Below are positions 8,373 to 31,034 of a stretch of 64,000 nt of DNA, in pieces. The first letter of the stretch is position 1, and each line of letters starts with the position of its first letter. The stretch lies in the NCBI RefSeq assembly GCF_018394335.1, contig NZ_CP074572.1, positions 682,001 to 746,000 of the forward strand, read 5' to 3'. The translations under genes were made by a program, and so were the position numbers. The notes below the pieces were generated by a model. That model was not told where the DNA came from, made no database searches, and saw nothing but the letters and a program-made list of their open reading frames with translations. The stretch comes from Shewanella dokdonensis. GTDB lineage: Bacteria; Pseudomonadota; Gammaproteobacteria; Enterobacterales; Shewanellaceae.

Positions 8373-9328
8373 TCCTAGTTTAGTCGGACAGCAAGTAAAC
8401 TCATTACGGGAAGCATTCGGCATTGCATTAACAGAACTTGCTAACACAGATGACAAAATTTTAGTTATGGATGCTGATGTTGCTGGCGGCACCGGTACAC
8501 ACCATTTTAGAAGCGCTTATCCAGAACGTTTTATTCAATGCGGTATAGCCGAACAAAATATGATTAGCGCCGCGGCAGGATTGGCTATTACGGGATTCAA
8601 ACCCTTCGTTACAACTTTTGCGACATTTATGCTTAGAGGGATTGAACAAATACGGTTATCAGTAGCATATTCAAAAAAATGTGAAATTCGTTGCTAGCCA
8701 TCCAGGGTTAGATGTTGGCCCAGATGGCGCATCAGCACAGTGTATTGAAGATATGGCCTGTATGAGAGCCATTCCTTCGATGGTTGTACTCTCTCCAGCA
8801 GATGCTTATGAAATCACGGCAGCTACCAAAGTACTAGCAAACTACAACGGCCCAGCTTACATGAGAAGTGGTCGCAGCCCTTGTCCAAACGTATTTGCTG
8901 AAGAACCCCACTTTGAAATAGGTAAAGGTTACGTACTACATGAGGGTTGTGATATCACCATTATCAGTTGTGGAGTGATGACACACAGGGCACTATCGGC
9001 AGCAAAGGCATTAGAGAGGAAAGTAAGTGTGAGAGTATTACACATGCCTTCAATCAAACCGATAGATCGCGAAAAAATTATTGATGCTTGTCAGGAAACC
9101 AAAGCCATTATCACATGCGAGGATCACTCCATTATTGGAGGGTTGGGCTCAGCCGTTGCTGAAGTCATCGCAGAGAGTGCAACTGCTACTCCGTTGTACC
9201 GCATGGGCCTACAAGACGTTATTGGTCGTTCTGGCGAACCGGATGAATTAGCAACCTTTTATGGACTGAATACTGAAAGTATTGTCCAAAAGGTCATTGC
9301 CATTAATAAGGAAACAAACCATGACTAG
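8362..9328 (+). CDS. Transketolase-like protein, C-terminal subunit; one frameshift
   Basis: The start ATG 8362 lies inside the end of the N-terminal subunit gene. The protein has the pyrimidine-binding domain (ILVMDADVAGGTGTHHF, RFIQCGIAEQNMISAAAGLA, FVTTFATFMLRGIEQIR) and the C-terminal transketolase domain (GCDITIISCGVMTHRAL, ITCEDHSIIGGLGSAVAEV). The Glu in GIAEQNM is the family's catalytic acid. The frame breaks at the A7 run 8673-8679. Removing one A restores YSKNVKFVASHPGLDVGPDGAS, which makes this the one shift in the window best explained by an inserted base. Its stop overlaps the start of the SDR gene by 8 bases. Together with its partner it should form one TPP-dependent enzyme. Confidence 0.85.
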
Positions 9329-10067
9329 CCATGTTGTCCTAATTACTGGAGCGACAGGTGGTGTCGGAAAGGCCTTGAGCTATTGCTTTGCAACCAAAGG
9401 GTATCTGGTGGCAATTGGTTACCATAGCAATAAACAGCAGGCTGAAAATCTAGCTGCTGAATTAAATGCTAAAGGTTATCAAACGTTGGCCATTAATATC
9501 GATTATCGTTCAAGAAACACCATCCAACAGTCGCTACTAGCAATTGAAAATTACTTTGGTAGTAAGGTATCAATCTTGATTAATAATGGTGCGATTGCGC
9601 AAGAGAAGCCGTTTGCCACTATCACAGACAGTGACTGGCAAACAATGCTTGATATCAATCTCCAAGGACCTTTCCGAGCGACACAAGAAGTGTTGCCCTT
9701 TATGCAACAGCAGCATTGGGGAAGAATTATCAACATCACAAGTATTGGCGGACAATGGGGAGGATTTAATCAGGTGCATTATGCGGCATCAAAAGCAGCT
9801 TTAATTAACTTCACTCAATCTATCGCCAAAATATATTCTGCGGACGGCATTGCGAGCATGGCGGTGGCGATTGGATTAGTTGCAACAGATATGTCAGCAA
9901 ATGAGCTAGCAACAGAGGCAGGAAAAGAAAAAGTACGAAATATACCTGCTCGCAGATTAGCGGCTGCTGAAGAGATTGCGATTCAAGTCGAAAATTTATG
10001 CCAAGATAATGCGTTTTATTTGACTGGACAGACCCTTAACATGAACGGCGGGATGTATTTTGGATAA
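9321..10067 (+). CDS. Short-chain dehydrogenase/reductase (FabG-like)
   Basis: A 248-aa classical SDR. The cofactor motif is TGATGGVGKAL near the N-terminus, NNGA follows at the NNAG position, and the catalytic Ser-Tyr-Lys set is visible as INITSIGGQ and YAASKAAL. The C-terminus TGQTLNMNGGMYFG is typical of 3-oxoacyl-ACP-reductase-like SDRs. The ATG at 9321 is preferred over upstream in-frame starts because it overlaps the transketolase stop (ATGACTAG), fitting a coupled operon. It probably reduces a keto group on the sugar or on an acyl precursor produced by the transketolase-like pair; the substrate cannot be read from sequence. Confidence 0.85.
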   Translation: MTSHVVLITGATGGVGKALSYCFATKGYLVAIGYHSNKQQAENLAAELNAKGYQTLAINIDYRSRNTIQQSLLAIENYFGSKVSILINNGAIAQEKPFATITDSDWQTMLDINLQGPFRATQEVLPFMQQQHWGRIINITSIGGQWGGFNQVHYAASKAALINFTQSIAKIYSADGIASMAVAIGLVATDMSANELATEAGKEKVRNIPARRLAAAEEIAIQVENLCQDNAFYLTGQTLNMNGGMYFG

Positions 10068-17414: not shown

Positions 17415-19556
<2,142 letters not shown>

Positions 19557-22317: not shown

Positions 22318-22962
22318 AAGTCAGGGCGTTGAGACGACTTTATTTGCCCAAAGTGAACTAGGAAACCAAAGCGTGGGCTGGTTCTTCTTGACCTGAACCA
22401 CAACATGCGCCTTTTTCTCACTGATTTTTTCCAGCGTTTCACGCTGACAATGCAAGGCAACTAGGGTAATCACTTCACCATTGAGATTCAGTACATCAAG
22501 CATCTGACGAACGGAACTGATTTCACCGTTCTTGTTTTCTGTTGGCTGCTGGCTAAGGACCAGTCCGTTTTCAGTATTGTAGGCAGTGACTAGTTGCAAC
22601 GCGGTCTTTGAATCATGGCGGTAAGCGCCTCTGAGCACCTTGCCATCAAAGGCAATGATGGACTTGCCTGTATTTGTCCGCTGCTCATTTACCCAGTTCA
22701 GCAGCGCTTCAAGCAGTGACTCTACAACCACAGTGCGCAAGATGCGAGCAATGGTGTGCCGTTGAGGAATACCATGATTAAATGGGCGGAATTTTTGTAG
22801 CCAGAGAAGTTTACTACCACCATAGGTTTCAATGTCTTACCAACCTTCAGCACCCGACATAATAGCGATTAAGACAAGGAACATGACGTCCACAAGATTA
22901 TGCTTTTGGTTGATGTCAGAGCGGGTTTCTCCAACAACCGTCAAGTGTTCGAGTAAGTTCAT
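22318..22962 (-). pseudogene. ISAs1-family transposase remnant
   Basis: From ATG 22962 the reverse strand encodes MNLLEHLTVVGETRSDINQ, the membrane-like DVMFLVLIAIMSGAEGW, then an in-frame TAA at 22837-22839 where the family usually has a Glu codon (EGWEDIE), and then DIETYGGSKLLWLQKFRPF, HGIPQRHTIARIL, IAFDGKVLRGAY and VVVQVKKNQPTLW. This is the N-terminal half of an ISAs1-type transposase. The C-terminal part is missing; the coding sequence ends abruptly near 22321 (family length about 370 aa, here about 213). A genuine nonsense codon plus truncation makes it inactive. Confidence 0.85.
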
Positions 22963-23546
22963 CAGAGCTGCTACTTGATTAAATGGGCTGCTATTAGATC
23001 ACAGCAAAGTGCTACACCCAACACTGGCTAAGAAGTACGATCCCGCCCTGAGGTTTTGACACGGTTGATGGGTGAGTTGATGGACTATGCTGATCAGATC
23101 AGCTGCTATAGCTTGAGTTCAACCGATTTAGGAAACAAAGCCGTTTTCATAAAGAATCTCCTGCACATATGGTACGAGAAAATTCTACTTTGAAGACAGT
23201 TAATTTAAGGGGGATTACCGTGGCGATTCAATTAACTTTGTCTCATTAGTTTTTATAGCGGCACTTGTTGCTAAAATGATAATAATATGTAACAATTTGT
23301 GAAATGGCATTTTTTGTAAACCAATGAATTTGCATTAGTATTTTTCGTGGTAGAAATTTGGCGTTCATGAATATTAAATTTTTCTCTTTATTGATTTCGA
23401 AAATGAAGTTTTTTGTTGACACGTGTTGCTGGCCCGTGTTTTATTTGCAGATACAGATGTTGAAGCACATCAAAAAATTATTTTTAGTAGTGTGATATCC
23501 CATATATCAAATTGAATTGATATGATGTTGAGTACAAGGATGTGGT
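22963..23546. other. Gene-free stretch between IS debris and the bacteriocin operon
   Basis: The left part (22990-23140) has a decayed coding-like segment (KVLHPTLAKKYDPAL, then after a shift TRLMGELMDYADQ) that I cannot assign. It is followed by an IS3 end at 23144-23219, listed separately. From 23220 to 23546 the DNA is AT-rich and non-coding and must hold the promoter of the export operon. No clear -35/-10 pair or known operator stands out. AGTACAAGGATGTGGT just before ATG 23547 provides the ribosome site. Confidence 0.5.
23144..23219. mobile_element. Terminal fragment of an IS3-family element
   Basis: This segment closely matches the orfA-side end of the IS3-family element at 29933-31030, in the same orientation. 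Both have an ATG-complement TTTTCAT, AGAATCTCCTGC, a TACGAGAAAATTCTACTTT block, a TTAATTTA block and a terminal GGGATTACC-type sequence. Only about 76 bases survive, joined on the left to unrelated decayed sequence. It is therefore a remnant with no coding capacity. Confidence 0.75.
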
Positions 23547-24794
23547 ATGTCTAGTTTATTCAGAAAACAGACCATTGAGGCACAAAAGCAAAAGCTACAT
23601 GGTGATGTGTCGCTGGCACAGCCCCTGTCTATTTACAATTCTGCGTTTATTATTTTTATCGTCGTTACGGCTATAGCTGTATTTCTCTCTTGTTCTCATT
23701 ACGCCAGAAAGGAAACCGTTCGAGGGTATTTAGTTCCCAATAAAGGGCTTATTGAAACATTCGCCAATCGTAGCGGTAACGTTGAGAAACTACACGTGTC
23801 AGAGGGCACACTAGTTCAAAAAGGTGATCCTTTAGTGACTATCATTCTCAGACGAAGTATGACTTCCGGCGAAGAACTCAGTGAATCTTTAATTGGCGAA
23901 CTGAAACAACAGTTAGACTTGCTCGAAGTTGAACGAGTAGTAAACCAAAGAATGTTGGGAGATGAGTCTGCTAGGTTAAGAACAGCGATATCAGATAATC
24001 AAAGTTCACTCTCTGTCATTAATAATCTGGAAAAATTGCTTTTTGAAAAATTGTCGATTCAACAATCTCAGCAAAATCAGCATAAGAAGTTATATCAGGA
24101 CGGTTTTCTTTCTAAACTCGACTATCAGTCTCAGCAAGAGAAGATTATCAATATTCGACAAGAAATTGAAAACACTAAATCTAACAGAGTAATCGTTTCT
24201 AGTCAATTAAATGCGTCACAAGCTGAGCTTAAGCTTTTACCCCATCAGTATGCATTAAAAGAGAGTGAGCTTAAAAGACGTCGCTCAGACCTTCAACGTC
24301 AAATCGATGAAACTGAGAATAATTATCGCTATGTTATCCGCGCTGTAGAAGCGGGAACGGTTGCCGCAATACAAATTGTTGAAGGAGAGTTTATTGCGAC
24401 AAATCGCCCGTTAATGAGCCTTATCCCTCAAGGTGCAGAACTGGTCGCAGAGTTACTATTACCTACTCGTAGTGCAGGCTTTATTAGAGAAGGGGATGAG
24501 GCAAGATTACGCTTTGATGCTTTTCCCTATCAGCGGTTTGGGTTCCTTGAAAGTCATATCTCCCGCATTGATAAGGCATTATTGCTTGATGGTGAAGCCA
24601 GAGTGCCGGTTAACTTGTCAGAACCAGTTTACCGTATTCGCACTCAGTTATCTAAGCAGGATATGCTGGCTTATGGAGAAGCTTTTCCTCTAAGAAGTGG
24701 CATGTTGCTTGAAGCTGACATTGTGCTCGATAGGCGGAGCTTACTTGATTGGCTACTCGACCCTATATACAGTCTGAAAGGGAGGGTCGGCTAA
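23547..24794 (+). CDS. HlyD-family membrane fusion (adaptor) protein of a peptide exporter
   Basis: 415 aa. A short cytoplasmic N-terminus, one membrane segment at about residues 28-50 (YNSAFIIFIVVTAIAVFLSC), then a periplasmic lipoyl half (GYLVPNKGLIETFANRSGNVEKL, HVSEGTLVQKGDPLVTI), a long coiled-coil hairpin (about residues 110-240), the second lipoyl half (IRAVEAGTVAAIQIVEGEF) and a beta-barrel part (LLPTRSAGFIREGDEARLRFDAFPYQRFG). This is the type of adaptor that links a peptidase-containing ABC exporter to TolC in colicin V/microcin secretion. Its stop shares a base with the exporter start (TAATG). The frame is intact. Confidence 0.9.
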   Translation: MSSLFRKQTIEAQKQKLHGDVSLAQPLSIYNSAFIIFIVVTAIAVFLSCSHYARKETVRGYLVPNKGLIETFANRSGNVEKLHVSEGTLVQKGDPLVTIILRRSMTSGEELSESLIGELKQQLDLLEVERVVNQRMLGDESARLRTAISDNQSSLSVINNLEKLLFEKLSIQQSQQNQHKKLYQDGFLSKLDYQSQQEKIINIRQEIENTKSNRVIVSSQLNASQAELKLLPHQYALKESELKRRRSDLQRQIDETENNYRYVIRAVEAGTVAAIQIVEGEFIATNRPLMSLIPQGAELVAELLLPTRSAGFIREGDEARLRFDAFPYQRFGFLESHISRIDKALLLDGEARVPVNLSEPVYRIRTQLSKQDMLAYGEAFPLRSGMLLEADIVLDRRSLLDWLLDPIYSLKGRVG

Positions 24795-26965
24795 TGAATG
24801 CCTCTACAGATATGACTAGTGAGTTTCCCCCAATTGAACTGTTGGAATTTTCAGGCAAGAAACGCGTACCGCTTATATTGCAGGCGGAAATGGCTGAATG
24901 TGGTTTAGCTTGTATCGCCATGGTTGCTAGCTTTTATGGGCACAAGCTTGATATGTCCGGATTAAGGAAGCGTTTTAGTGCAAATTTAAAGGGGATGAAT
25001 CTGCAGCAGATGATTGGCCTCAGTGACAGCATAGGACTTGCGAGCCGTGCGCTGAAGTGCCCGATAGAAGAAGTTGGTAAGCTCACATTCCCTTGTGTGC
25101 TGCATTGGGATATGAATCACTTTGTGGTGTTGACCGGAGTGACTAAGTCCGGGGTGAGCATTAATGACCCGGCGTTGGGGAAGAAGACGTTTACTTTTAA
25201 AGAGTTTGCCGAGCATTTCACTGGTATCGCACTAGAGTTGACCCCCACCAAAGGATTTGAGCAGGTTGATGAACGCCAGCAGATGCGCTTATCGCAGCTC
25301 TGGAGCAAGATGACAGGGTTAGGTCAAGCTTTAACTACACTTTTCGTGTTGTCATTATTGCTGCAAGTCTTTGCGCTAGTCACTCCTTACTACATGCAGT
25401 GGGTAGTCGATGAGGTCCTCATTAGCCAAGATAGACCACTACTCATAGTGCTGGCAGCAGGCTTTGGATTGCTTGTGGCTATCAACGTAATAACCTCTAG
25501 CGTACGTAGTTGGTTGGTTTTGCGTGTATCGAGCCTGCTCAATATGCAGATGGGTGTCAATTTATTGCGTCACCTGCTTAGGTTACCCATGAGTTATTTT
25601 GAAAAGCGCCATGTTGGTGACTTGGTTTCGCGGTTTAGCTCACTTGCCCAGGTGCGAGAGCGTTTAACTACTGGGTTAGTCGAAACGGTTGTTGATGGCG
25701 TCATGTCAATAGCCGTACTAGTGATGATGTTGATTTATAGCGTCAAGTTGACATTAGTTGTTGTTGCAGCAATTACACTTTACACTCTATTGAGGTTTGC
25801 GCTTTATCGGCCGCTGCACCGAGCAACTGAAGAGTCCATTCAGTCGAGCGCCAAAGAGCAAACAAATTTCTTAGAGAACATTCGCTGCATACAAACCATT
25901 AAACTGTTTACCTGCGAACCTCAGCGTCAAAGTTTATGGCAAAACCGTTACAGCGAAGTGATTAATGCAGATATCCGTCTAGGCAAGCTCAAAATCAGCT
26001 TTGACGCCATGAACAAGTTGCTGTTTGGTGTAGAGAACATCATTGTGGTTTACCTTGCGGCGACAATTGTGATGAGCGGTGGTTTAACAATCGGTATGGT
26101 GCTGGCATTTATCGCATACAAGAATCAGCTAACGGAGCGTTTTGCTAGCCTGATTGAGCAGCTTATTTTGTTTCGTATGTTGCGTTTACACCTCGACCGT
26201 ATCTCTGATATTGCGCTGCACGAACAGGAAGCAAATAGGGAGAGTATCACTTCCATCAACATGGTTACTGGACAGTTAACGCTTGAGCGCGTGAGTTTCC
26301 GATATGCACCAAATGAGCCATGTGTCATCAATGATGTGTCTATCACTATCAATGCGAATGAATCCGTTGCCATCGTGGGTGAATCTGGATGTGGCAAGAC
26401 AACATTAGTAAAGTTAATGTTGGGGCTGTTAATCCCAACGCAGGGGCGAATTTTGCTGGATGGGCAAGATATTACTCAAATTGGTTTAATCGCCTATCGC
26501 AAACAGGTTGCTGCGGTCATGCAAGATGATACTCTGCTATCAGGCTCTATCGCCGACAATCTAACCTTCTTCGACCCCGAGCCTAACTATTTGCGTATGC
26601 AGCAGTGCGCGCAAATGGCCGCCATTGATACCGACATCAGTAAAATGACAATGGGGTATAACACCTTGGTAGGGGATATGGGCAACCAGTTCTCTGGCGG
26701 GCAAGTACAGCGCCTGTTGCTTGCCAGAGCCCTTTATCAAAAACCAAGTTTACTGTTCATGGATGAGGCGACCAGCCATCTTGATGTTAATAACGAAGCA
26801 AGGATCAGCGAGCAGATAAAACACCTCGACATGACGCGCATCATCATCGCGCACCGACCGGAAACCATCAAGCAGGCTCAGCGAGTATTGGTAATGCATC
26901 GAGGTAAAGTCTACACACAGGATGAGATGGAAAGTTTTATGGGTAACACTCAGAAAGCGCAGTAA
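24794..26965 (+). CDS. Peptidase-containing ABC exporter (C39 peptidase, bacteriocin/microcin type)
   Basis: 723 aa; the start at 24794 overlaps the adaptor stop. Residues about 20-145 are a C39 peptidase with the catalytic Cys in LQAEMAECGLACIAM, the His in HWDMNHFVVLTGV and the Asp in NDPALGKKTF. These enzymes cut after Gly-Gly leaders. Residues about 165-445 form the membrane domain (GLGQALTTLFVLSLLLQVFAL, LLMVLAF-type helices). The ATPase follows: Walker A GESGCGKTTLVK, signature FSGGQVQRLLLARAL, Walker B SLLFMDEATSHLD and an H-loop His in IIIAHRPETI. It would both mature and export the double-glycine peptides encoded just downstream. The 3' end of this gene is duplicated at 28.13 kb. Confidence 0.95.
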   Translation: MNASTDMTSEFPPIELLEFSGKKRVPLILQAEMAECGLACIAMVASFYGHKLDMSGLRKRFSANLKGMNLQQMIGLSDSIGLASRALKCPIEEVGKLTFPCVLHWDMNHFVVLTGVTKSGVSINDPALGKKTFTFKEFAEHFTGIALELTPTKGFEQVDERQQMRLSQLWSKMTGLGQALTTLFVLSLLLQVFALVTPYYMQWVVDEVLISQDRPLLIVLAAGFGLLVAINVITSSVRSWLVLRVSSLLNMQMGVNLLRHLLRLPMSYFEKRHVGDLVSRFSSLAQVRERLTTGLVETVVDGVMSIAVLVMMLIYSVKLTLVVVAAITLYTLLRFALYRPLHRATEESIQSSAKEQTNFLENIRCIQTIKLFTCEPQRQSLWQNRYSEVINADIRLGKLKISFDAMNKLLFGVENIIVVYLAATIVMSGGLTIGMVLAFIAYKNQLTERFASLIEQLILFRMLRLHLDRISDIALHEQEANRESITSINMVTGQLTLERVSFRYAPNEPCVINDVSITINANESVAIVGESGCGKTTLVKLMLGLLIPTQGRILLDGQDITQIGLIAYRKQVAAVMQDDTLLSGSIADNLTFFDPEPNYLRMQQCAQMAAIDTDISKMTMGYNTLVGDMGNQFSGGQVQRLLLARALYQKPSLLFMDEATSHLDVNNEARISEQIKHLDMTRIIIAHRPETIKQAQRVLVMHRGKVYTQDEMESFMGNTQKAQ

Positions 26966-27005
26966 AGAAGTGAAAAAAAGAATAGGTAAAAAGGAATTTT
27001 AATCA

Positions 27006-27071
27006 ATGAAGTGTGACGCTCAAAACAGCAAAGTATCGCATTGGTTAAAAACAAGGGCGCGGCAACTTTAG
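27006..27071 (+). CDS. Conserved 21-codon ORF in the precursor leader region (copy 1)
   Basis: ATG 27006 follows a good ribosome site (AAGGAATTTT) and encodes 21 residues, MKCDAQNSKVSHWLKTRARQ plus Leu. The duplicated copy at 28418 keeps the ribosome site, start, stop and length, with both silent and replacement changes (V/A, H/N, T/A, A/T). The end of the ORF overlaps the hairpin at 27053-27088, an arrangement seen in leader peptides that couple translation to transcription. There is no Gly-Gly motif. It may be a regulatory leader, a tiny peptide, or only the fossil of a longer gene; the evidence is conservation between two copies only. Confidence 0.3.
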   Translation: MKCDAQNSKVSHWLKTRARQL

Positions 27072-27088
27072 CCGGAAACTGCGCCCTT
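27053..27088 (+). terminator. Hairpin between exporter gene and first precursor
   Basis: AAGGGCGC (27053-27060) pairs perfectly with GCGCCCTT (27081-27088) around a 20-base loop. No long T run follows, so it is more likely an attenuator, processing or mRNA-stability hairpin than a simple terminator. The copy in the duplicated segment (near 28465-28500) keeps the same layout with mismatches in the stem. Confidence 0.4.
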
Positions 27089-27178
27089 GGTTAGTCGCTT
27101 AAGGCCAAATAAACCTAAAAAATTCGTTTGAGCACTTAGGTAAACATAACATTAGAAGTTTAAATTAAGGAAGATATT

Positions 27179-27361
27179 ATGAATACTAAATTCGATAGTA
27201 AAAAAATAGAAGAGTTGACAGTTTCTGAGTTACAAAGTGTTACTGGTGGGAGCGGTTGGCTTGGGCATCTAGATAGTTTTTATGACCATCAGGCAGGACT
27301 TGAATATGGCTATCAAACTGGTGGAAGTGAATTATTTCCTACTTGTGATCGTATTCAATAA
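27179..27361 (+). CDS. Double-glycine leader peptide precursor (bacteriocin/microcin-like)
   Basis: 60 aa. The ribosome site AAGGAAG lies 5 bases before ATG. The first 24 residues form a classic leader (KKIEELTVSELQSVTGG) matching the ELxxxELxxVxGG pattern recognised by C39 exporters. Cleavage after GG would release a 36-residue peptide starting SGWLGHLDSFYDH, rich in aromatic and charged residues, with a single Cys near the end (FPTCDRIQ). The mature part is more hydrophilic than that of usual pore-forming class II bacteriocins and resembles no family I know. It sits 213 bases after the exporter gene whose product should process it. Function as a toxin is inferred; a signalling peptide is an alternative. 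Confidence 0.75.
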   Translation: MNTKFDSKKIEELTVSELQSVTGGSGWLGHLDSFYDHQAGLEYGYQTGGSELFPTCDRIQ

Positions 27362-27445
27362 ATTTTATTAGTAACAGCCAAAATTCAAAGACCTTTGAAC
27401 TTTGGCTTAACTGATATGTTTGAATTGCTAAATAAGGAAGTTTTA

Positions 27446-28131
27446 GTGGCAAAAGTAATAAGTATCAATCTGTTTTTACTTCTTTTTTTGCGTTTAACGT
27501 TTTAGTTATAAGGTTTTTTCACCTTCCCGAGTCGTTTTATTCGATAAATTTATATGTTCATCTAGCTCCTGCTTTTTGTTTGTTTTTTTTGGTATTGATT
27601 AAGGTTTTTAGAGGGACGGAGTTTGTGGTTTTATTTTTTTCCTTAATTAACTTCTTTTCTTGGCTGGCATTATTTAAATACCAGTCTCCTTTGCTTTTAG
27701 GTTATGCGGTTGGACAAGTAACGAGCTCCTCAATGGAGCCGACTTTGAAATTAAAAGATAGTGTGGTTTATAAAACAAGTTGGTTGAACCTGCATCGAAA
27801 TGACATAATCATAGCTTTGAAGGTGCCTAAGCAAAATGGAGGTGGGTTTATTAATGTTAGTAAAAGAATTGCGGCGATCCCTGGCGATAAGGTGTTTATT
27901 TGTGACTATAATGTTTATGTAAATGGTGTCCCTTTTTATAAAGACAGTGACAGGAATGTTGATTGTGTCCATGTGGAAAATATAGCGCTTGAGAGTGATG
28001 AGTATTATCTCCTGGGTGAAAATAAATTTGCTAGCTATGACTCTAGGTTTTTTGGCGTTATAAATAGAGAGAGTATCTCGGCTATTGCAATTTATAAAGT
28101 CTCAGAGGATTTGACTGTAACTTATTTCTGA
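27446..28131 (+). CDS. Signal peptidase I-like (S26) membrane protease in the bacteriocin locus; one frameshift
   Basis: GTG 27446 with ribosome site AAGGAAG opens MAKVISINLFLLLF. Adding one T to the T7 run 27483-27489 joins this to the frame ending at 28131 (about 228 aa). The N-terminal half is hydrophobic (several membrane segments, including ALFKYQSPLLLGYAV). The catalytic part has the Ser box TSSSMEPTLKLKD, the Lys box SKRIAAIPGDKV and the late box GENKFASYDSRFFG, which matches signal peptidase GDNRxxSxDSRxxG. A dedicated S26 protease between two sets of precursors is unusual. It could trim the exported peptides or another local protein. It is shorter and more hydrophobic than housekeeping LepB. 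Confidence 0.75.
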
Positions 28132-28139
28132 TATTGATA

Positions 28140-28295
28140 GCCCTATACCAGCAACCGAATCTGCTATTCGTGGATGAGGCGATCAGTCATCTTGATGTTA
28201 ATAACGAAGCAAGAATTAGCGAGCAGATAAAACACCTCGACATAATGCACATCATCATTGCGCACCGGCAGGAAACCATCAAGCAGGCTGAGTGA
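28140..28295 (+). pseudogene. Fragment of ABC exporter ATPase C-terminus
   Basis: About 51 codons in the duplicated segment encode ALYQQPNLLFVDEAISHLD, the D-loop region and the H-loop (IIIAHRQETIKQAE) of the exporter, then stop at TGA 28293-28295, earlier than in the intact gene. It has no start region and no other ATPase motif, so it is a non-functional relic of the duplication. Confidence 0.85.
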
Positions 28296-28417
28296 GTATT
28301 GCTGACGTACCAAGCAAAGTATACGCACAGGATGAGATGCAATGCATGATGAGCAATGTGTAGTATTGTGCAATAAAGACGTGAAAACAAAGAATAGATA
28401 AAAAGGAATTTTAATCG

Positions 28418-28483
28418 ATGAAGTGTGATGCTCAAAACAGCAAAGCATCGAATTGGTTAAAAGCAAGGACGCGTCAACTTTAG
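28418..28483 (+). CDS. Conserved 21-codon ORF in the precursor leader region (copy 2)
   Basis: Second copy of the short ORF at 27006. It has the same AAGGAATTTT ribosome site, the same 21-residue length and the same stop, encoding MKCDAQNSKASNWLKARTRQ plus Leu. Retention of the open frame through the duplication, while the neighbouring exporter fragment has decayed, is the reason for listing it. No function can be assigned. Confidence 0.3.
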   Translation: MKCDAQNSKASNWLKARTRQL

Positions 28484-28590
28484 CCGGAAACCGCGCCCTT
28501 ATTCAGTCGCTTAAGGCCCAGTAAACCTAAAAATTCGTTTGAGTACTTAGGCAAATATAATGTTAAACAGTTTAAATTAAGGAAGATTTT

Positions 28591-28728
28591 ATGCAAGAAC
28601 TTACAATGAGTGAAATTGAGCAAGTTAATGGTGGTATTGCACCATTAGTGATCCTAGGTGCAAAAGCATTTATGGGTGGATTAACTGCAGGCTGTATGAT
28701 TTTTGGTCTGTATGAAGCTACTAAATAA
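28591..28728 (+). CDS. Double-glycine precursor of a hydrophobic bacteriocin-like peptide (45 aa)
   Basis: ATG 28591 follows AAGGAAG. The leader MQELTMSEIEQVNGG matches the LxxxEIxxVxGG pattern and is only 15 residues. Cleavage after GG gives a 30-residue hydrophobic, Gly/Ala-rich peptide beginning IAPLVILGAKAFMGG, with a GxxxG motif (GLTAG) and one Cys. This is typical of two-peptide (class IIb) pore formers. A second peptide of similar design follows 9 bases later. Too short for routine gene callers. Confidence 0.8.
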   Translation: MQELTMSEIEQVNGGIAPLVILGAKAFMGGLTAGCMIFGLYEATK

Positions 28729-28737
28729 GGGGATATT

Positions 28738-28869
28738 ATGAAAGAGTTGAATAGCAAGGAGCTTGCTGCTGTAAATGGTGGAGTGGTTCCATTAATCGTA
28801 GCGGTAGTCTGTGCCGATTTGGGATTAAATGCAGCATTCGCAGCATGGTATTACGCCAAGACAAAGTAA
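28738..28869 (+). CDS. Double-glycine precursor of a hydrophobic bacteriocin-like peptide (43 aa)
   Basis: ATG 28738 with ribosome site AAGGGGAT inside the gap after the previous gene. The leader MKELNSKELAAVNGG is followed by a 28-residue hydrophobic peptide starting VVPLIVAVVCADLG and ending AAWYYAKTK, with one Cys and small-residue spacing (GLNAAFAA). Same design as its upstream neighbour: short leader, GG site, hydrophobic core, C-terminal Lys. The two are probably expressed together and may act as a pair. A hairpin follows at 28893-28923. Confidence 0.8.
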   Translation: MKELNSKELAAVNGGVVPLIVAVVCADLGLNAAFAAWYYAKTK

Positions 28870-28892
28870 TAAATTTGTTATAATCGTTATAT

Positions 28893-28923
28893 GGTCGAAG
28901 TGGAGCAATATTCTACTTCGACC
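28893..28923 (+). terminator. Hairpin after the paired precursors
   Basis: GGTCGAAGT (28893-28901) pairs perfectly with ACTTCGACC (28915-28923) around a 13-base loop. No T run follows; the next gene's ribosome site starts 4 bases later. It may reduce rather than end transcription, giving more precursor than immunity mRNA, or it may stabilise the precursor transcript. Confidence 0.55.
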
Positions 28924-28937
28924 ATTGAGGAGTTAAT

Positions 28938-29081
28938 GTGAATAGAGTTTTATTGTTTACAGTGATGGCTGTTAATATGCTCACTTTGTTATATAAGGTG
29001 ACTGTTGAAATGGATTTTTGGCTTTTGTCCTTACTTTTCATAAATTCTCTGTTTGTGCTGTTTATGGTTAATAATAAGTAA
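28938..29081 (+). CDS. Small two-helix membrane protein, probable bacteriocin immunity protein
   Basis: 47 aa from GTG 28938, which follows GAGGAG at 28927-28932. The whole protein is two hydrophobic helices (VLLFTVMAVNMLTLLY and FWLLSLLFINSLFVLFMV) joined by a short charged loop, ending NNK. Size, topology and position directly after two bacteriocin-like precursors are those of class II immunity proteins, which protect the producer at the inner membrane. The sequence itself matches nothing I recognise, so the role rests on context. Confidence 0.6.
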   Translation: MNRVLLFTVMAVNMLTLLYKVTVEMDFWLLSLLFINSLFVLFMVNNK

Positions 29082-29198
29082 ATTTTAATTTGGTGTTATG
29101 TTTTATGTTTTTTCTTATATGTAGTGGCTGACAATTTAAACGCTGCGCCATCCTACCATGTTAAGTATGAAAATTCTCAGAGTTTCGGGTGCTTCTAT

Positions 29199-29853
29199 GG
29201 CATTGTTGATCAAATAATTTCACGAGTAGCAACAGCCCCAAAACATTGCACGGTTTAGCGACTTGCTCCCAGAGAAGGCATACCCAAGATCAGCATTTTG
29301 TTCATTGCCTTTACGCCAACCAAGGCTTCGCCAACTTGGGCATTGTAATAGACTCAGTGTCGGGCTTATCAGTTGCTTGTATCGGTACATCGCGGTTTCT
29401 GCCAGTGACCTTTTCCCGAACTCATGTTGCTGCTTCCACTCCGATAGGCAACCTGCATTCAGTGCATTAACGACTTCATTGCGGATATGCCCTTCGGACC
29501 AGTACCCTGCATCGAACTCGGGGGATCACTGCCTTTATGCCTCTGTTTTTGAGTAGCGTATGACAAGCTTTGGTGTCATACGCGCCATCGGCAGACACTT
29601 GCTTGATATGACGGCGCGACTTCAATCGCTTGGTCAGTAAACAGAAAGCCGCGTCCCCGGCCACCATGATGCTGATGGCATAGCCAACCTTTGATGGCCG
29701 CTTCATCAACCCAAAAGGTTAATGAGCCGCGATTACGCAATGTATGAGTGATGCTGTGCTTAGCTTTACCCATAATGCCGCTCTGTCAGTCTGTACTGAA
29801 AGAGCGGATCACTGTCCGCTGAAATGGTTCAAAAGGATTTAGTCAACAATGCC
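29199..29853 (-). mobile_element. Internally deleted IS5-family element
   Basis: Inverted ends GGCATTGTTGA (29199-29209) and TCAACAATGCC (29843-29853) bound a 655-bp element on whose reverse strand lie two pieces of an IS5-type transposase. Intact relatives are roughly 0.9-1.0 kb, so a central part is missing. No clear target duplication is seen at the ends. Confidence 0.8.
29220..29773 (-). pseudogene. IS5-family transposase, decayed
   Basis: The start at 29773 reads MGKAKHSITHTLRNRGSLTF, then WVDEAAIKGWLCHQ and HHGGRGRGFLFTDQAIE, the IS5 N-terminus. The sequence then jumps, with a frame change, to the catalytic end (KQVSADGAYDTKACH, AVIPPRVGAGYWSEGHIRNE after repair, FGKRSLAETAMYRYK), ending at 29220. 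The segment between, containing the first catalytic Asp region, is deleted, so the product cannot be active. Confidence 0.85.
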
Positions 29854-29928
29854 GTCCAAAAGGATTGGATTAGATCATAAGCATTTTGTCCACTCTTTCG
29901 GTACACGCTCAGAGTAGCATAAGCGCTG

Positions 29929-31034
29929 GCTCGGTAATCATCCCATTCTTAATGGGCGTTAGAAGTAGAAGGTTGCGTTATTAAAGCCTGTTTGTATTTC
30001 GGTGGTATGCCACCAATTGCCTTGTTTGGTCGTTCATTGTTGTAAAACCAGCGCCATTCTGTCGCATGTTCTTGTACCTCGGGCAATACTGCTGAATGAA
30101 TATTGATTTAGCCACTTGTAGCAAACTGTACGGTTATACCGCTCCACATACGCATTCTGCTGTGGGTTTCCAGGCTGAATAAACTTCAATTCAACATCGT
30201 GTTTTGCTGCCCACTCTGCCAGTAAAGCGCTGATGTATTCTGGGCCATTGTCACTACGAATTTGTCTGGGCTTGCAGCGCCATTCAATAACTTGATTGAG
30301 CGTGTGGACAACACGCTCAGCTGACAGCGAAAAGTCGACCTCAATCGCCAATCCTTCTCGGTTAAAAACATCAATGATATTAAGCAGTCTGAAGCTGCGG
30401 TCATCTTCGAGCTGGCATGCATAAAGTCCGTAGACCAGCACTGATTTATCGATTCCGGCACTACTAATAATGCATCAGGCGTATCACGTTTTAAGCGCTT
30501 CTTCGGCTTTATCCGCAGATTAAGTTCCAACTCACGGTAAAATCCTAAGCACCCGCTTATGGTTCCAACCAAAGCGTTTCACATTGTGTAAAAAGTAGAA
30601 GCACATTCCAAAACCCCAGTTGCGATGAGTCACAGTTAACCGCAGCAGCCAGTCGGCGATTTGCGCATTGTCATCACTGAGTTTAGCCTGATAGCGGTAA
30701 CAGGTTTCACTCAGCCCAAATAGACGACATGCGAACTTGATGGTAATGGAATGGTGTTGCACCGCCTTTTTTCGATCGCCTCTTTGAGAATTTCGGCTTT
30801 GAGCCGTTCCTCGGCATATTATTATCCCCTTGGGGACATCTTTTTGAGCCGGGCATTTTCCGTTTCTAGCTCTTTAAGCCGAGCCATCATAGGAGCACCG
30901 GCTTCGGCTTGTTTTAAGATCGCCAGGATTTGGCTATCGCTAAATTTTGATGTTTTCATGCAGAATCTCCTGCGCTTATGTTACGAGAAAATTCTACTTT
31001 TGACGCCGGTTAATTTACGGGATGATTACCGCTC
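29929..31034 (-). mobile_element. IS3-family element with target duplication, internally deleted
   Basis: Ends GGTAATCATCCC (29933-29944) and GGGATGATTACC (31019-31030) are inverted repeats, extended by partly matching AGTAGAA/TTCTACT blocks. The four bases GCTC occur on both sides (29929-29932 and 31031-31034), a target duplication of the expected size for this family. The element is about 1.1 kb, against 1.2-1.3 kb for intact relatives. Its transposase genes are disrupted. A fragment of the same kind of element lies at 23.14 kb in the same orientation. Confidence 0.85.
29949..30959 (-). pseudogene. IS3-family transposase genes orfA/orfB, disrupted
   Basis: orfA starts at 30959 (MKTSKFSDSQILAILKQAEAG) but lacks the middle of the helix-turn-helix region, joining directly to MMARLKELETENARLKK; a stop follows. 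orfB continues with MQHHSITIKFACRLFGLSETCYRY, then YRELELNLRIKPKKRLKR, the integrase core [38 protein letters not shown] and [13 protein letters not shown] with the catalytic Asp and Glu, ending PSTSNAH at 29949. At least three frame changes separate these pieces, so the element is not autonomous unless several are sequence errors. Confidence 0.85.

Follow-up and report, generated by a model that had tools for sequence, protein, structure and literature searches.

When a single peptide exporter is followed by three short precursors with double-glycine (GG) leaders, do these precursors form one system or several? We address this question for a locus of Shewanella dokdonensis at positions 23547–29081 of the window, by which we mean the whole 64,000-nucleotide (nt) stretch of contig NZ_CP074572.1 that was analysed (682,001–746,000, forward strand); coordinates without further label are those of the window. 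Three GG-leader open reading frames (ORFs) of 60, 45 and 43 amino acids (aa), a gene for an S26 signal-peptidase-like membrane protein and a 47-aa ORF lie 3′ of genes for a HlyD adaptor and a C39-peptidase ATP-binding cassette (ABC) exporter, and their order is that of two cassettes. Cassette 1 comprises the exporter, a structured element, the 60-aa precursor (p60) and the S26 gene, and cassette 2 comprises an exporter fragment, a second copy of the element, the 45- and 43-aa precursors and the 47-aa ORF. Because p60 has its own S26 peptidase partner, the three precursors fall into two cassettes and are not a single system. We consider it probable that this is a reloadable peptide-export locus, with one exporter and two exchangeable cassettes, each made up of an element, one or more precursors and a partner gene. 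The original prediction, made from the sequence alone, had placed all three precursors in one class II bacteriocin/microcin-type locus; a single operon of three sister precursors is rejected here, and two cassettes were found instead, split by a duplication of the exporter 3′ end.

The HlyD-family periplasmic adaptor of a type I export system (23547–24794, +; PF13437, E = 3.3e-14), a homologue of which precedes the exporter in relatives, overlaps by its stop, over one base, the gene for the C39-peptidase ABC exporter (24794–26965, +; PF03412, 7.9e-32; PF00664 and PF00005). Both genes, recognized at first reading, are full-length open frames, and close exporters in relatives share 66–96% identity. 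Export of the precursors by this C39 ABC/HlyD pair, part of the original prediction, is well supported as a predicted function by homology and by conservation of the leaders. The duplication forms two homology arms of approximately 455 base pairs (bp) that separate the cassettes and are 84% identical overall (78–96% in single blocks). Copy 1 (26728–27181, +) contains the exporter 3′ end, the intergenic region, the element and an ATG, and copy 2 (28139–28593, +) contains a broken exporter 3′-end fragment (approximately residues 646–718, with an in-frame stop visible), the intergenic region, the element and an ATG. This duplication, the S26-like gene and the structured element 5′ of each precursor group had all been overlooked at first reading.

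Each cassette opens with a two-hairpin element of approximately 150 nt whose end is the precursor ATG. Copy 1 spans 27032–27181 (+; hairpins P1 27052–27089 and P2 27097–27141) and copy 2 spans 28444–28593 (+; P1 28464–28501 and P2 28509–28552), scoring 151.4 and 153.5 bits, respectively, against a covariance model (R1). Related upstream regions were aligned from 30 nhmmer matches, dropping four under 125 nt and omitting an identical copy in genome G052 and a divergent copy in G060, and the two hairpins are common to all 24 rows of the resulting alignment (A4). In the named structure, 88.3% of 642 cells are standard pairs. The hairpins covary: double-changed cells numbered 51, whereas 500 shuffles averaged 19.4 (standard deviation 3.6) and slid controls ranged from 4 to 24; the structure was read off this same alignment and is therefore favoured over slid versions. 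Further pair types were not above shuffles (29 vs 27.9). The terminal ATG is present in 24/24 aligned copies, with AAGGAA just 5′ of it in 23/24. Model R1 matched 30 elements, spread over 19 of the 129 Shewanella genomes, and among 394 genomes sampled from the order matches occurred in 5, all Shewanella; an Rfam search of positions 23000–31000 (E up to 5) gave no match. Most elements (24/30) run directly into a GG-leader ORF at the terminal ATG, one of which (G068:C7) has just four residues 3′ of the GG. Of the six exceptions, four have a disrupted or lost leader (two elements in G021:C5 and one each in G079 and G027), one (G060) has a leader ending in GS and one (G123) is a partial element.

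A strand test did not separate sense from antisense: over all helices, G-U cells numbered 51 and A-C cells 45, with pairing about equal on both strands, so our claim is limited to a conserved two-hairpin element, for which an RNA leader appears the likelier reading. Scans for sigma-70 promoters and terminators stayed at chance level. Alternatively, the element could be a DNA recombination site, either a folded single strand or protein-bound inverted repeats. Besides the near-equal pairing of the opposite strand, such a site would account for helix P1 pairing better in antisense (95.4 vs 91.2% in sense) and for the fact that, among the cassettes of this kind covered by reading, most are marked by the element. 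We nevertheless think it rather unlikely: in the lower part of P2, pairing is better on the sense strand (98.2 vs 83.9%), the ATG end and the AAGGAA before it are nearly invariant, the repeat boundaries vary at the left (exporter residues 629 to 678), as homologous recombination gives, and no recombinase was noticed, with no search aimed at one.

The genomic context of the element suggests that cassettes have been exchanged behind the exporter gene. Among the 29 R1 matches examined for exporter context (the partial G123 match was left out), 16 lie directly 3′ of an exporter gene (some of these genes, in G090, G004, G022 and G053, being interrupted by stops or breaks), 1 lies approximately 0.6 kb away, 7 follow exporter fragments and 5 have no exporter trace. 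Six of the seven fragments start between residues 629 and 678 and reach near the C-terminus; the seventh (G021:C24) covers residues 654–684. Across 15 exporter loci (omitting G060, which has no A4 row, and G021:C24, where the exporter is 0.6 kb off), element identity correlated with the identity of the neighbouring exporter body (r = 0.62; 0/5,000 permutations as high). Nine same-genome element pairs are 81–99% identical, compared with an all-pair median of 77%. A link of the arms to the host was set aside in favour of the neighbouring exporter, since among the 7 genomes holding at least two aligned copies, same-genome copies are mutually nearest in only 4 (G027, G052, G068 and G107). Payload was compared in one family, p60: its three elements share 71–79% identity with one another, which does not exceed the level of pairs in general. 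None of them has another p60 element as its nearest; the nearest elements are in G107 (90%), in G068 (91%) and among the other copies of G027 (97%). The elements thus track the neighbouring exporter and not the payload, which argues that payloads have been exchanged. G052 carries three cassettes with elements 97% identical between the compared copies, the same leader residues and visibly different cores; this and the element/exporter pattern match what homologous recombination through the arms would be expected to produce. A 3′ end of a neighbouring gene is also repeated around a p60/S26 unit in a second case, G086, where the unit lies behind a gene that we take to be moaA and 300 nt from the 3′ end of this gene are duplicated at 88% identity (L140:7247–7546 and 9136–9435) on either side of a divergent p60/S26 pair.

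On this evidence, new cassettes would enter by homologous recombination through the exporter 3′ end, the element and the leader. Integration of a circular piece by one crossover would account for the observed order: the exporter intact, then the new cassette, then a fragment of the exporter and last the older, displaced cassette. The exporter would remove all leaders at GG. Two further cassettes differ in their surroundings. At G021:C24 (L043:6927–7340), the stretch from exporter to element holds two extra GG-leader ORFs, whose cores are proline/glycine-rich in one case and hydrophilic-looking in the other. The G080 cassette (L094:8326–9045, −) lacks an exporter, comes after a HlyD fragment and encodes a protein with an HELEH motif and a weak match to peptidase BSP (0.0051, below cut-off).

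The precursors themselves stand out from the rest of the window. A scan of both strands for the leader pattern, among ATG-started ORFs of 30–130 aa, returned exactly three ORFs, all at this locus, and no match in 100 two-letter-step shuffles of the window; these three precursors were known when the pattern was drawn up, so chance is bounded only roughly. The three short GG-leader ORFs of the original prediction were thus recovered, with cores of 36, 30 and 28 residues. Two of them, the 45-aa precursor (28591–28728, +; hydrophobic core of 30 residues) and the 43-aa precursor (28738–28869, +; hydrophobic core of 28 residues), match the class IIb family of lactobin A/cerein 7B (NCBIfam TIGR03949) at 31.0 and 33.5 bits, above the cut-off of 21.5. 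p60 scored 13.2 bits against the same model, with leader residues alone aligned, and was rejected as a member. Its mature part is hydrophilic, as had been remarked (core grand average of hydropathy −0.61, charge −4). The first reading of a class II bacteriocin locus thus fits the 45- and 43-aa precursors and is a poor fit for p60, which is hydrophilic, negatively charged and under the TIGR03949 cut-off.

Cassette 2 resembles class II microcins and class IIb bacteriocins with C39 ABC and HlyD exporters in exporter architecture, leader pattern, short hydrophobic cores and a small membrane-type immunity candidate; cassette 1 differs from these in its hydrophilic core and dedicated S26 protein, and both cassettes carry the element and an exporter-derived arm. 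Cassette 2 is class-IIb-like, and we infer that its peptides are exported and may act against bacteria. It would free one or two membrane-active bacteriocins, with the 47-aa membrane-type protein (28938–29081, +) probably conferring immunity to the product of the 43-aa precursor. Both have homologues in another Shewanella genome, G038, where the gene related to the 47-aa ORF (36% identity, E = 2.3e-4) lies directly 3′ of the one related to the 43-aa precursor (66% identity, L142:1308–1442); this single further case of the pairing supports the immunity assignment already made at first reading. By reading, no second GG precursor was seen near the 43-aa homologue in G038 (stretch L142:900–1800), which argues mildly against a strict two-peptide pair; the covariance model found no element in that genome. 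The spacer between the 43-aa precursor and the 47-aa gene contains a 10-bp perfect inverted repeat by direct reading (28892–28924, +), and a hairpin-like stretch was seen by eye in the spacer of the G038 pair as well.

The exporter, the GG leaders and the two TIGR03949 matches are also what an ordinary class II cluster would contain, with three co-working precursors and repeats that are plain tandem duplications without meaning. We consider this very unlikely. p60 recurs with the S26 gene in G079, G027 and G086, where searching and reading of the stretches covered gave no match to the other two precursors, G038 has the 43-aa/47-aa pair and no match to p60, and similar elements lead different payloads in many genomes.

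Cassette 1 is new in combining a hydrophilic, Cys-containing precursor with what is predicted to be its dedicated S26 peptidase. p60 (27179–27361, +; leader of 24 and core of 36 residues, with a single Cys in the core) is a real coding gene, judging by third codon positions, which vary most in comparisons of p60 with homologues in two genomes and of those two with each other (33/60, 29/69 and 38/77 differences). Among Pfam and NCBIfam models, the sole one at cut-off was TIGR01847, the leader motif itself (16.0 vs 15.7 bits); ComC (PF03047) fell just under it (20.2 vs 20.4). An assignment to lactococcin G-beta (NF038034; 20.4 bits vs a cut-off of 37, covering the leader and part of the core) was set aside. 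The family has six members, P0001–P0005 (E at most 1e-17) and a divergent member in G086. In all six, T47-G48-G49 is invariant and precedes S or T, and a Cys close to the C-terminus stands within a conserved TC[DE]R; the C-terminal block is the most conserved part of the core. The p60 search of the genus matched 7 genomes, of which G090 and G107 (leader end alone) and G068 (positions 1–39, internal stop) were not counted. A p60 profile run against 5.8 billion proteins returned five family members and one insignificant match (P0006, E = 1.3), a 54-aa protein, bacteriocin-like by its source name, that shares YQTGGS with p60. Among the 394 genomes sampled from the order, p60 matched its own genome, plus one leader-only match; none of 21 pattern matches in viral contigs was a relative, and plasmids gave none.

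The S26 gene lies directly 3′ of p60 in all four loci with readable context (the window, G079, G027 and G086), and a profile of this S26 subfamily (E limit 1e-12) matched exactly those 4 of the 129 genus genomes. A search of genome contigs with the S26 profile returned 63 pattern matches; relatives numbered 2, both from Shewanella. By hidden Markov model (HMM) cut-off, Ser/Lys pair and fold, the protein belongs with signal peptidase I (S26), with the fold taken from a predicted structure. It scores 72.2 bits against TIGR02227 (cut-off 47) and 70.6 against PF10502 (cut-off 22.9; 1.9e-19), Ser51 and Lys95, which we take from the S26 family to be the catalytic pair, are invariant in 4/4 homologues, and its AlphaFold model (predicted local distance difference test score 76, predicted template modelling score 0.67) matches SipA (6.7e-7), LepB and SpsB. 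Signal peptidases favour small residues at the cut site, a rule that TGG/S suits. In our best reading of these sequences, the S26 protein would cut, or cut and ligate, the exported p60 core at the invariant TGG before S/T. Cassette 1 would thus free a hydrophilic core, and the S26 cut would either release a short Cys-containing tail or join the new end to the N-terminus, as proposed for TraF-type enzymes on pilins. In a fuller version that we regard as speculative, C39 removes the leader, the S26 protein cuts at TGG/S and joins the glycine end to the N-terminus, giving a 25-residue circle and a free 11-residue Cys tail, and the cassette moves between Shewanella strains through homology to the exporter 3′ end, behind an element that is not in Rfam. 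Monoisotopic masses computed for these products are 4046.82 for the entire core, 2757.21 for the N-terminal part released by a TGG/S cut (2739.20 if cyclic) and 1307.62 for the C-terminal tail (1289.61 less water).

Support for ligation would come from the S26-type TraF/TrhF proteins, which, in the part of the text available, are proposed to process and cyclise conjugative pilins (PMC12037004). The likeness lies in the shared family and in an HMM match to TraF_Ti (TIGR02771, 5.2e-11), and the pilin case likewise acts on a short exported protein. The systems differ in that the TraF_Ti score (42.4 bits) is far under its cut-off (100.25), whereas the signal peptidase I model passes; pilin and conjugation genes were not noticed at the locus, with no search aimed at them. 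Because the TraF cut-off is missed, the statement that the protein is a TraF is not supported, and the statement that it works like one serves as a hypothesis.

A different product was considered for the same peptide, in which cassette 1 is a cell-to-cell signal and the S26 protein frees a short Cys-containing C-terminal peptide sensed by related cells. Type I signal peptidase takes part in the maturation of the staphylococcal autoinducing peptide, which has a Cys placed like that of p60, and the hydrophilic core and strong C-terminal conservation, including TC[DE]R in 6/6 members, would fit. We hold this to be improbable: no receptor or regulator gene turned up by the pair in the stretches read, with no search aimed at one, and cassette 1 of the window neighbours a bacteriocin-type cassette.

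Several observations weigh against maturation by the S26 protein and against exchange of cassettes through the arms. The S26 frame (27436–28131, +) is open for 231 codons from 27436, and no ATG, GTG or TTG precedes 27580; the GTG at 27446 belongs to the neighbouring frame. A plain frameshift in this gene is thereby weakened as an explanation, the frame being open and the standard start alone missing. Behind precursors other than p60, the partner slot is occupied by small hydrophobic proteins, a CPBP/Rce1-like protein or a rhomboid, so the S26 protein could serve in immunity and not in maturation. It would then protect the producer by destroying or sequestering the exported peptide at the membrane, and the peptide would be the final toxin. 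By eye, the small hydrophobic partners are immunity-like, the other two are recognized by PF02517 (1.6e-9) and PF01694 (7.1e-16), and CPBP/Abi proteins have reportedly, by the title of a paper, been tied to bacteriocin self-immunity. Since membrane proteases recur in the partner slot, immunity stays a serious rival, possible although not the reading we favour, because the most conserved part of the p60 core is the C-terminal block with TGG, as a maturation substrate would have, and the core is hydrophilic. As for exchange, same-genome clustering of elements is incomplete (absent in G021 and G079, doubtful in G000), the cassettes of G079, G027 and G080 have no close full exporter with them, exporters of G090, G004, G022 and G053 have stops or breaks, and some payloads are broken. 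Missing close exporters together with broken exporters and payloads indicate that the repertoire is in part decaying. Exporter-like arms could also arise if a tandem duplication were followed by gene conversion.

Reloading of this kind has partial parallels. In orphan cdiA-CT/cdiI modules of contact-dependent inhibition (CDI) systems, the available text describes a new module adjoining the delivery gene with older ones displaced downstream, many retaining homology to that gene and often forming tandem arrays (PMC4927057). The position of the new module next to the delivery gene is shared, whereas the CDI repeat is part of the toxin protein itself and the repeat here is the exporter, with a separate small peptide as cargo. 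The pneumococcal blp bacteriocin-immunity region is a syntenic locus for double-glycine bacteriocins, with genes for bacteriocins and immunity that differ widely from strain to strain (PMC7595303, in the portion consulted). It is alike in having variable payload genes at a fixed double-glycine locus and differs in being Gram-positive; exporter 3′-end arms or such an element are not mentioned in that portion. The searched literature, which was short of most subscription papers, held no account of a double-glycine peptide paired with a dedicated S26 peptidase, nor of exporter-armed arrays of this kind in Shewanella. In a Neisseria island, double-glycine peptides promote self-lysis, and no killing of competitors by them could be detected, according to the text available (PMC11798529), so we infer and do not assert an antibacterial function for the peptides of this locus. 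C39-processed small bacteriocins are in general often missed by automated annotation, as stated in the part consulted (PMC3223724). If our readings are correct, a Gram-negative exporter is reloaded as contact-dependent toxin systems are, with the exporter gene as docking arm; Shewanella bacteriocins could be found by tracking the element instead of the hypervariable cores; and a double-glycine peptide with a dedicated signal peptidase would be a maturation route without counterpart in the literature searched, as far as that was available.

Some features of the assembly and of the flanks were also noted. The genome is a single 4.13-Mb contig of 96.6% completeness. Its other S26 matches (2678091–2678638 and 3142366–3143008 of the genome) are each split between frames, and a gene at 18563–19556 (−), presumably nucleotide-sugar dehydratase-like, is in pieces across different frames. 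The split matches, the fragmented gene and this completeness for one contig make uncorrected assembly indels in this genome likely. Remnants that we take from the look of their ORFs to be transposase-like lie on both sides of the locus (22321–22962 and 29476–30959), and a 49-bp direct repeat (90%) is present at 23143 and 30952.

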